Part shown: one piece after another, positions 19,008 to 21,562 of the stretch
Layout: every line of letters starts with the position of its first letter
How positions within the stretch are numbered: position 1 is the stretch's first letter
Notes under the pieces: generated by a model
Told to the model about the DNA's origin: nothing
The model's database searches: none
Seen by the model: only the letters and a program-made list of their open reading frames with translations
Program-made: the position numbers and the translations under genes
NCBI GenBank assembly: GCA_025934645.1
Contig: JAICWY010000008.1
Span: 1 to 64,000 of the forward strand
Reading direction: 5' to 3'
DNA from: Vulcanimicrobiia bacterium
GTDB taxonomy: Bacteria > Vulcanimicrobiota > Vulcanimicrobiia > Vulcanimicrobiales > Vulcanimicrobiaceae
Length of the DNA stretch: 64,000 nt

Positions 19008-19505
19008 TCAAAAGAGCAGCTTCGCGTGGGTGATTTTGCGGGTCATCGCGTCGATACGCGCCTCCATGCCTGCGAGCGTGGTGTTGGTCTGATGCAGCCT
19101 AGCGTTGGTACTGGAAAGGCCGCGGACGGTGAGGCGCAGATTAACGGCCATGCCGGCTAGGGTGGCGTTGGTGTGACCGAGGAGGCCGTTTGTGGCGCCG
19201 AGGCGGCCGGCGGTCGTGCCCAGTCTGCCGTTCGTCACTCGGATTTGCGCGTTCGTTCCGCGCAAAAGTACCGTCATCCGGTTCAGCCGGGCGTTGGTGC
19301 CGGAGAGCTGCAGATTCGTTTTAGCGAGGCCCGTTTGCATGCTATCGAGCGTTTCGGCCATGCGATTCAGCGTTAGAGCGGTATAAACCGCAAATGCTAA
19401 CGCGACGAGCGCCGCTAGCGCGATCGCCGCGATACGGACAGTTCGCGCGGCTATTCGCCGTTCGGTGAAAATGCGGCTCCCGGAATATGCGTGGGCGGTC
19501 TTCAT
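19008..19505 (-). CDS. Membrane-anchored heptad-repeat (Leu/Thr-Asn) coiled-coil protein
   Basis: 165 aa: a basic N-terminus, one membrane helix (residues about 24-44), then an uninterrupted coiled coil to the end. Leu or Ile occupies every seventh position from 46 to 158 (17 positions in a row). The position three residues later is Thr or Met throughout (mostly Thr), and Asn often follows it, giving the unit LxxTNxx (e.g. LSGTNAR, LGATNGL, LGHTNAT, LSSTNAR). Such a regular a/d core with Thr at d suggests a parallel multimer projecting from the membrane. No family recognised. Its 5' end is 14 bases from the next lipoprotein gene. Confidence 0.8.
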   Translation of the reverse strand: MKTAHAYSGSRIFTERRIAARTVRIAAIALAALVALAFAVYTALTLNRMAETLDSMQTGLAKTNLQLSGTNARLNRMTVLLRGTNAQIRVTNGRLGTTAGRLGATNGLLGHTNATLAGMAVNLRLTVRGLSSTNARLHQTNTTLAGMEARIDAMTRKITHAKLLF

Positions 19506-19519
19506 CGTTTTTGCACCGC

Positions 19520-19963
19520 CTACGGGCGCGCTACGGTAAACGTTCCGCCGCTCGCCGCAACGTTCTGGCCGTTCGCCATGCCCGCAGCGGTATCGCCCGT
19601 AAACGTGTAGAGCGGGTGCCCTTTATACGCCCACTGTTGTCCGCCGCCCATGCGCATGATGACGGTAAAATTGCCCGTTGGCTGCGCGCCGGCGCTTGCC
19701 ATAAAGGGCGGCCAAACCGCCGCGCACGAGGCCGTGCAGTTTGAAACGTCGGTACCGTCGCCGCTGAACTCGTACAACGTGAATCCGTTCGGCGTCGCAA
19801 GGCCGGGCGATCCGAGAATTGTTTGCGTAATGGCGGGCGTCGCGGAAGCCGGCGCGCCGTTACTCGCTCCCGGCGGCATGTACTTCGACGATCCCCCGCC
19901 GTAGCCGCCGCAGCCGGCCAACAACAATGTGAGCGCCAGAGCCGCTGTGATTCGATTGTTCAT
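19520..19963 (-). CDS. Lipoprotein with COG4315-type secreted repeats
   Basis: 147 aa. The signal peptide ends in lipobox LLAGC, followed by a Gly/Ser-rich linker. Two repeats of the PF03640-like secreted repeat are visible: TLYEFSGDGTDVSNCTASC-AAVWPPF around residues 62-90 and HPLYTFTGDTAAGMANGQ around 115-135. The Cys pair and WPP motif are characteristic. Function of the family is unknown. It lies upstream of the heptad-repeat gene on the same strand (14 bp apart), so both may be expressed together at the cell surface. Confidence 0.88.
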   Translation of the reverse strand: MNNRITAALALTLLLAGCGGYGGGSSKYMPPGASNGAPASATPAITQTILGSPGLATPNGFTLYEFSGDGTDVSNCTASCAAVWPPFMASAGAQPTGNFTVIMRMGGGQQWAYKGHPLYTFTGDTAAGMANGQNVAASGGTFTVARP

Positions 19964-20031
19964 GTGTGCCTCCGCAATCGGAATGATTGCGTTGGCGACC
20001 TACCCGAAGGTCTGAAGAAACTGTGAAAATG

Positions 20032-20913
20032 CTACGGTGATTCGCGCTCGCGCGAGCGTATTTCGATCATCCCGGCGGCTACGCGCGTCTCGAAGCACGG
20101 CTGCGGACTGGTGGCCGGCCCCTCCAGCACGGCGCCGCCCTCAAGCGAGAAGCGCGAGCCGTGCCAAGGGCATCGAATGCTGTCGCCTTCAACGCTTCCT
20201 TTTTCGAGCGGTCCCGCCTGGTGCGCGCAACGCGCGTAGAGCGCGTGTATGCGTTCGCCACGACGAACGAGCACCACAGGCATTCCGTTGTAATCGGCTC
20301 GCTGCGGCTCGTTTTCTTTCAATTCGCCGGCGGGAAGCACGGGACGAAACTCCAGCGGTAAGTGAGTTTTCGCCGCGTGATTGACGCCGGTTTGCTGAGC
20401 GAAAACCAAATGTCCGCCTAGGTACGCACCGAGCAGCATGATGCCATAACCGCCGTACGCGAGAGCGACACGCGACGTCCGCGAATCTTTACGCGCGAGG
20501 AGAGCGGCGGCGTATAGAGCAGTAGCGGTCACATTGAGGATCGCATGCACTTCACCGATGCGCCGCGCGCGGCCGGTCGTATCCGACCAATCCGATAAAC
20601 CGGTAACGGCCGAGGCAACCGCACCGGCAAGACCGGTCAAAATCGAAACATCCGCAGCGCGCTCGAAGTCTTTACCCGGAGCAACCACGGCGAGCGCGTC
20701 GAATACGGCCGCCATCGTCCATCCGCCTACCGGTACATCTTTGAGAATCGGATGCAGCGGATGGCCAATCGACGTTCCGCTCAGTATGTTTTTGAGCGTC
20801 CGTCCTGCGCCGGATGTCTGGCGGAACGCGCGCCGCGCCGGCGGCTGCACAATGTCGGCGATGCGATCGGCGAGCGGCTGATCCTGGATTGCTTTTACGA
20901 GTTGCTGCATCAT
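20032..20913 (-). CDS. DUF2231 membrane domain fused to Rieske [2Fe-2S] domain
   Basis: 293 aa. Residues 1-190 form a DUF2231-like membrane domain with GHPLHPILKDVPVGGW and about 4 helices (e.g. YGIMLLGAYLGGHLVF). Residues about 198-290 form a Rieske domain with the Cys-x-His (CAHQAGPLEKG) and Cys-x-x-His (CPWHGSRF) cluster ligands spaced as expected. It probably transfers electrons at the membrane; partners unknown. The neighbouring gene 5 bp upstream encodes a stand-alone DUF2231 protein, so the two may form one complex. Confidence 0.88.
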   Translation of the reverse strand: MMQQLVKAIQDQPLADRIADIVQPPARRAFRQTSGAGRTLKNILSGTSIGHPLHPILKDVPVGGWTMAAVFDALAVVAPGKDFERAADVSILTGLAGAVASAVTGLSDWSDTTGRARRIGEVHAILNVTATALYAAALLARKDSRTSRVALAYGGYGIMLLGAYLGGHLVFAQQTGVNHAAKTHLPLEFRPVLPAGELKENEPQRADYNGMPVVLVRRGERIHALYARCAHQAGPLEKGSVEGDSIRCPWHGSRFSLEGGAVLEGPATSPQPCFETRVAAGMIEIRSRERESP

Positions 20914-20918
20914 CGCAG

Positions 20919-21410
20919 CTACGAGCGCTGCGCCGGCGCCCTCATCGTTTCTGCCGACCGGCCTTCAACGGTGGTTTCTTTAGCCGGCTTTGTTCCGACG
21001 AGTCCGACATACACGAGATGCCCGCCATACCATCCCGATACGACAAGCGTGCCCAGCCCGATATACGTCAGCACGTAACCGAGCGTACTGATCGGATTGC
21101 CGTACCGCACGAAAAACGCTGCAATGTAGATCGCCACAACGATGAGGTTCAGGATCATGTGAGTGGTCGCAGTACGCTTCGCCGCCGCCGGCATGGGCGC
21201 GGTGAAGTAATCGACAAAGCCGAAGAGCGCGGCAATAAGAGCACCTACAACACCGAAGGCAATAAGCCACACGCTCATGTGTGGCCAAAAACCGGGATTG
21301 CCCCAGATCGATATCACGTCGCTAACCAAAACCGCGCCGAAAAATCCGATCGGAAAGGCAACCAACATGGGGTGAATCGGGTGATCCGCGAGTGTTGCTT
21401 TCCCTTGCAT
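20919..21410 (-). CDS. DUF2231 membrane protein
   Basis: 163 aa with four membrane helices. Begins with the family motif ADHPIHPMLVAFPIGFF; later segments are VWLIAFGVVGALIAALFGFVD and GLGTLVVSGWYGGHLVYV. ATG 21410 is chosen because GGAGG lies 6 bases upstream; a longer start (21446) would lack it. It is the first gene of a two-gene unit with the DUF2231-Rieske protein and is divergent from comM. Confidence 0.88.
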   Translation of the reverse strand: MQGKATLADHPIHPMLVAFPIGFFGAVLVSDVISIWGNPGFWPHMSVWLIAFGVVGALIAALFGFVDYFTAPMPAAAKRTATTHMILNLIVVAIYIAAFFVRYGNPISTLGYVLTYIGLGTLVVSGWYGGHLVYVGLVGTKPAKETTVEGRSAETMRAPAQRS

Positions 21411-21562
21411 GCAAAACCTCCAGCCGAGCTTGCTTATCTTACCCAATTAACGGGACGGGGCATGCCACGGATGCCTGCGCAACGGTTTTTTATCTGGTAG
21501 AGAAGCGAGCAGTCCCTTGCGGCACGGTAAGGACCGTGGGATTGAAAGAGCGGAGGATCGCT

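Follow-up and report, generated by a model that had tools for sequence, protein, structure and literature searches.

A 165-residue protein encoded on the minus strand of the window, the 64,000-nucleotide stretch of DNA from a soil bacterium (phylum Eremiobacterota) that was analysed here, is a member of a real, apparently undescribed Eremiobacterota family. The family is new and its architecture is ordinary: intact members have one N-terminal membrane helix, a coil built of LxxT or LxxM heptads, and a conserved C-terminal tip. Together with the anchor segment, heptads and tip, we observed variable coil length, purifying selection, and one tip form met only in this phylum. We tentatively favour, with a little less than even confidence, a reading of the protein as a self-associating stalk that is anchored in the inner membrane and would present a docking tip some 8–15 nm into the periplasm.

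Layout and heptad pattern of the window protein

The open reading frame (19008–19505, ATG start, stop codon at 19008–19010; all features here lie on the minus strand) is assigned to a membrane-anchored coiled-coil protein from its heptads, its homologues and dN/dS. Residues 1–24 (19434–19505) form a basic flank with six Lys/Arg and one Asp/Glu, and are probably cytoplasmic. They are followed by a single transmembrane helix at residues 25–45 (19371–19433), uninterrupted heptads at residues 46–156 (19038–19370; Leu or Ile at a, Thr or Met at d, often Asn at e), and the tip KITHAKLLF at residues 157–165 (19011–19037), which is supported by a tip profile and the homologue alignment. The initial annotation had proposed anchoring by one membrane helix, and this was borne out: the protein has a single hydrophobic segment at about residues 25–46 (hydropathy peak 2.41, with 0.77 in the next scanning window), and homologues share the layout. 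Neither Cys, Trp nor Pro occurs in the coil (residues 46–156). AlphaFold2, given 17 sequences, modelled the protein as one helix spanning residues 11–164, the membrane segment included (mean pLDDT 89.2, pTM 0.39), and a homologue (L019) as one continuous helix at residues 5–154 (mean pLDDT 85.6). These predictions are of monomers, and a lone helix with a pTM of 0.39 says nothing on self-association.

The heptad pattern is far stronger than expected by chance. All 17 a positions (46, 53 and so on to 158) carry Leu (14) or Ile (3), exactly as the initial annotation described, and the heptad score of residues 46–161 was 33 compared with a mean of 14.8 in shuffled sequences (sd 1.3, maximum 22), none of 100,000 shuffles reaching the observed value. 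The hydrophobic residues give a spectral peak at a period of 3.50. Thr (ten heptads) or Met (six) occupies d as described in 16 of 17 heptads, but the last has Ala; the further description, that Asn usually comes next, fits most Thr and not Met, with Asn at e in 8/17 heptads overall and eight LxxTN motifs in the protein. Combinations of Leu at a and a beta-branched residue at d lean towards assemblies of more than two chains in coiled-coil design work; among the titles that a literature search on Thr at d and oligomer number returned, none offered anything usable.

With its threshold set to the minimum, Tandem Repeats Finder reported no array within the gene, so the repeat is a feature of the protein rather than of a recent DNA duplication. 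A local low-complexity expansion, for which homologues without heptads would have been the sign, was rejected on this lack of a DNA repeat, on conserved homologues, all of which keep LxxT/LxxM heptads where intact, and on dN/dS.

A family defined by its C-terminal tip

Searching with the single protein gave matches in 10 of 98 genomes, its own included; six of the nine others proved to be family members and three (L008, L010 and L011) did not, and a scan of genome contigs with the window protein alone returned no match. A profile of six members (A2) matched 86 of 149 genomes of the phylum, a count that we did not use since many of these matches were generic coils without a tip. We therefore sought a feature outside the coil by which to define the family, and built a tip profile (A4) from the last 30 residues. 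At a threshold of E 0.05, which is the source of our family count, the tip profile matched 22/149 Eremiobacterota genomes, once in each, the window's included, across two families of the class; among good-quality genomes it matched 15/85. The window protein carries this defining tip (E 7.5e-12, the window protein being itself a row of the profile). One further genome (G075; L028 / L066) encodes a protein that resembles the members and has a third kind of tip, VGKSHLLHI; it was matched by the whole-protein profile and is not listed for the tip profile.

Seventeen intact members, the window protein and 16 others, were aligned (A3). Broken, truncated or gapped copies (L006, L025, L030, L035 and L092) and the copy with a variant tip (L028) were left out, and for L021 and L024 we chose a first residue at which there is no start codon. 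The tip, which the initial annotation had not mentioned, is the most conserved region of the family. The mean majority frequency was 0.59 over the last 25 residues and 0.54 over the 15 residues after the membrane, compared with 0.40 in the membrane helix, 0.37 in mid-coil (where gaps count against it) and 0.29 at the N-terminus. Two forms of the tip were found: KITHAKLLF in six of the 17 members (the window protein, L003, L004, L005, L018 and L020; the first two positions vary as K/R and I/L), and KIxGSFLFRxVK, with I/L/V variation, in the other 11.

A DNA pattern for the second form, run against one genome per species of 84,980 species, found ten stretches, all of them known copies of the family and two of them truncated or gapped. 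Nine of the records are labelled Candidatus Eremiobacterota or Eremiobacter and one Proteobacteria. The latter (L044, JAJPHJ010000011.1) encodes the same protein as a genome of the window's class (G070) and is probably a mislabelled metagenome-assembled genome. Restriction to Eremiobacterota is shown for exact matches of one tip form only, the second.

No Pfam or NCBIfam model scored above cut-off for the window protein. Scans of the 17 members against NCBIfam and Pfam returned coiled-coil families with best E values of about 1e-5 to 0.1 among the 25 matches listed of 59 and of 90. Among solved structures, phmmer gave a best E of 0.15, and the profile found generic coiled coils (such as designed bundles and tropomyosin) with a best E of 3.2e-6. 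In literature searches on Eremiobacterota, alone or combined with coiled-coil, we noticed nothing on this family among the titles and abstract openings listed.

Coil length, selection and gene loss

The coil varies about twofold in length. The spacing between the conserved Met49 and Met147 is 52, 73, 76, 83, 87, 90, 98, 101 or 104 residues in the 17 members, equivalent to about 7.7–15.4 nm of helix. Modulo 7 these spacings give 0 in four members, 3 in six and 6 in seven, that is, three of the seven possible register classes. The chance of nine lengths falling into some three of seven classes is about 2% (35 x (3/7)^9), a figure that ignores relatedness and was chosen post hoc, so that a non-random distribution of coil length over register classes is suggestive only. 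The strict Leu–Thr core, which the initial annotation called rare for a short bacterial membrane protein, is special to the window protein and three members of the sister genus g26. The remaining 13 of the 17 aligned members are offset in register by 3 or 6, which makes the unbroken run a feature of the window and g26. LxxM also outnumbers LxxTN in 13/17 members. LxxTN occurs in 16/17 members and is enriched in them, with 59 instances in 2,491 residues versus 36 in the 87,918 residues encoded by 291 nearby ORFs that a script had called.

dN/dS was 0.13–0.49 in all ten member pairs compared, one of which included the window gene, with dS above 1 and near saturation in eight. By this measure, selection on the family is purifying. 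Some copies have decayed. In two genomes of genus g26 the gene is a remnant, with only the tip region retained in one (G025, L092) and the front missing and the frame broken in the other (G057, L069); the decayed g26 copies, with their tip region retained, adjoin an AIR-synthase-like gene. The copy in G021 is truncated, that in G132 is interrupted by a frame break, perhaps through an assembly error, and that in G016 contains a run of N. Given tip matches in only 22/149 genomes and the remnants in G025 and G057, the gene looks dispensable from its distribution.

Neighbourhood, envelope position and possible function

Directly upstream of the gene lies a lipoprotein gene with Lipoprotein_15 (PF03640) repeats (19520–19963), and the coiled-coil gene starts 14 nt past it. 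A possible ribosome-binding site read from the sequence, AGGCGG (19516–19521, 10 nt before the ATG), overlaps the lipoprotein stop codon. The lipoprotein gene is part of a group at 19520–21446, with two DUF2231 membrane proteins (one fused to Rieske), which looks like a small membrane electron-transfer set. The short gap and shared strand suggest that the coiled-coil gene may be co-transcribed with these DUF2231, Rieske and lipoprotein genes; a promoter scan found nothing. The initial annotation had put forward the lipoprotein as a partner. We compared the locus with 20 others (19 of the 21 other tip-bearing genomes, all but G016 and G025, plus G075), each taken with at most some 8 kb of flanking DNA, several ending at contig ends and with ORFs called by a simple script. 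Although the lipoprotein adjoins the gene in the window, no similar called ORF was found in these 20 loci at E 1e-6 or at E 1, which rules it out as a conserved partner. Neighbours are shared among the four g26 loci and among those of g9, and not beyond close relatives. An apparent neighbour cluster shared by g9 and g44 was rejected as conserved, being of the alpha/beta-hydrolase superfamily with a best cross-genus identity of 22%. Among the proteins encoded beside four homologues are an AIR-synthase-like protein (which we take to be thiL), a class II tRNA synthetase, a dihydroorotate dehydrogenase and a trypsin-PDZ protein.

The orientation of the protein was read from charge. In 16 of the 17 members (the exception is L029), of the two flanks of the membrane helix the N-terminal one is the more positive, opposite to what we found with the same script for DUF948-like proteins of the same phylum, in which the C-terminal flank was more positive in 10 of 14, with two ties and two the other way (four of 18 were skipped because the stretch used showed no clear helix, and start codons were unsettled for several). 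On this basis the coil probably lies on the periplasmic side of the inner membrane. The assignment is weakened by the coil itself, which is net basic in 16/17 members (the exception is L024). The window genome encodes an Omp85 protein and has two MlaD matches. Vulcanimicrobium, a relative in culture, is reported to have an inner membrane, a thin peptidoglycan wall and an outer membrane covered with LPS (PMC9758169). The earlier suggestion of a stalk or spacer in the periplasm thus agrees with the charge bias and with a diderm envelope, and less well with the basic coil.

In the stalk reading, the basic N-terminus would sit in the cytoplasm, as the charge bias suggests, and the membrane helix would run unbroken into a long coil standing in the periplasm. 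The coil would self-associate, probably in parallel and with two to four chains, through packing of Leu at a against Thr or Met at d, and would act as a spacer whose length evolves freely. The short, conserved basic-hydrophobic tip may dock with a wall or outer-membrane partner. Counting against this reading are that no partner was found, that neighbourhoods are not conserved past close relatives, that coil lengths spanning a twofold range speak against a fixed ruler or bridge, that the coil is net basic, that the gene looks dispensable, and that a weak similarity to DUF948, unseen in decoys, points to a possible cytoplasmic relative.

A familiar comparison for such a spacer is Braun's lipoprotein Lpp, which has a lipid anchor in the outer membrane and attaches to the wall through a C-terminal Lys. 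The window protein would be anchored in the inner membrane, by a membrane helix; it has no Lpp-type lipobox (it contains no Cys), and it ends in LLF, its tip closing on Phe without an Lpp-type C-terminal Lys, whereas the other tip form ends in VK. What the two would share is a periplasmic coiled-coil spacer whose length can change by whole heptads: E. coli tolerates Lpp engineered to be two or three heptads longer (+14 and +21 residues), and the inter-membrane distance is reported to be set by the length of Lpp (PMC5736177). This makes a stalk of evolving length plausible. A bolder version, in which a phylum-specific, heptad-quantised stalk anchored in the inner membrane keeps the tip at a distance that differs by species, thereby helping to set the gap between the inner membrane and the wall or outer membrane as a mirror image of Lpp with its anchor in the opposite membrane, seems to us rather improbable.

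A possible but doubtful alternative turns the protein around, as a membrane-anchored scaffold in the cytoplasm like FacZ (DUF948). Both the coil and the basic tip would then be intracellular, and the tip would touch the membrane or a division protein. FacZ and the window protein are alike in having one N-terminal membrane helix and a long coil, and FacZ is predicted to form assemblies of three or four chains that reach about 15 nm into the cytoplasm (PMC10914604). The window protein matched DUF948 (PF06103) at E 7.8e-5, while none of eight hydrophobic-framework decoys did at E 0.01; profile–profile comparison gave a probability of 61 compared with 2–31 for eight decoys, five of the 17 members matched at E up to 0.1, and the coil is net basic in 16/17. 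However, the score of 23.2 bits is under the 37.2 cut-off, the charge bias is opposite, and DUF948 matches occur elsewhere in 105/149 genomes at E 1e-3 (five of them exceed the cut-off, and some fall in long frames, perhaps of other coiled-coil proteins), including the window's own (G000:C149), with no tip-bearing locus among the match places listed. We therefore rejected DUF948 membership; a remote relation is possible, judging by these similarities. The family's C-terminal tip was not seen in the DUF948-like proteins of the phylum that we read (L099–L116). These have stretches of their own in common, for instance TLxHVGGIADTAD and a basic end, and their charge bias suggests that the coil is in the cytoplasm.

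We assign only a small probability to an inner-membrane spanin or tether that bridges or fuses membranes with the adjacent lipoprotein, in the manner of phage Rz/Rz1. An N-terminal membrane helix followed by a coiled coil is the layout of i-spanins, the lipoprotein gene is immediately adjacent with its stop codon over the likely ribosome site, and 8/17 members matched the Rz-like spanin phrog_739 at E up to 0.1, the lowest value being 5.6e-8, while 4/17 matched phrog_89. In a control at E 0.01, three of five real members (best 5.6e-8) matched phrog_739 compared with one of five decoys (9.6e-5), so that the match reflects partly, perhaps not wholly, helix-plus-coil composition. The extreme C-terminus of spanins is described as variable (PMC6139136), but is the most conserved part of this family. 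tblastn with two members met no phage record at E 1e-3, viral contigs contained neither tip pattern, and a phage or prophage setting was likewise absent among the neighbours of four homologues. The window lipoprotein, which would be the o-spanin and carries Lipoprotein_15 repeats, showed no similarity to any called ORF of the 20 loci searched with it. The phage searches, chromosomal neighbours and conserved C-terminal end disfavour a spanin, even though real members outmatch decoys. A drifting low-complexity coil without specific function, which would account for the patchy occurrence, the low identity in the coil and the decayed copies in G025 and G057, appears just as unlikely given the dN/dS values, the conservation of the tip in two families of the class, the confinement to three of seven register classes and the lack of a DNA-level repeat. 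FtsB, FtsL and DivIC are short bitopic division proteins with a coil adjoining the membrane helix, the same size class and layout as the window protein, and a protein of this type would combine its single helix and periplasmic coil with a C-terminal binding tail. That identity is very improbable: FtsB/DivIC (PF04977) did not match the window protein at E up to 1, the sole DivIC match in the genome is separate, below cut-off and on another contig (C154), and a tip found in so few genomes is a poor fit to an essential division protein.

The stalk reading remains the one that we tentatively favour, and the patchy, decaying distribution of the gene suggests that such a stalk would be an accessory, not a core, part. 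What is known of envelope tethers comes mostly from a handful of model bacteria. This small, simple family of a little-studied diderm phylum, its tip conserved and its coil of varying length, offers a clean route to two questions: which partner the tip binds, and whether envelope spacing goes with coil length.
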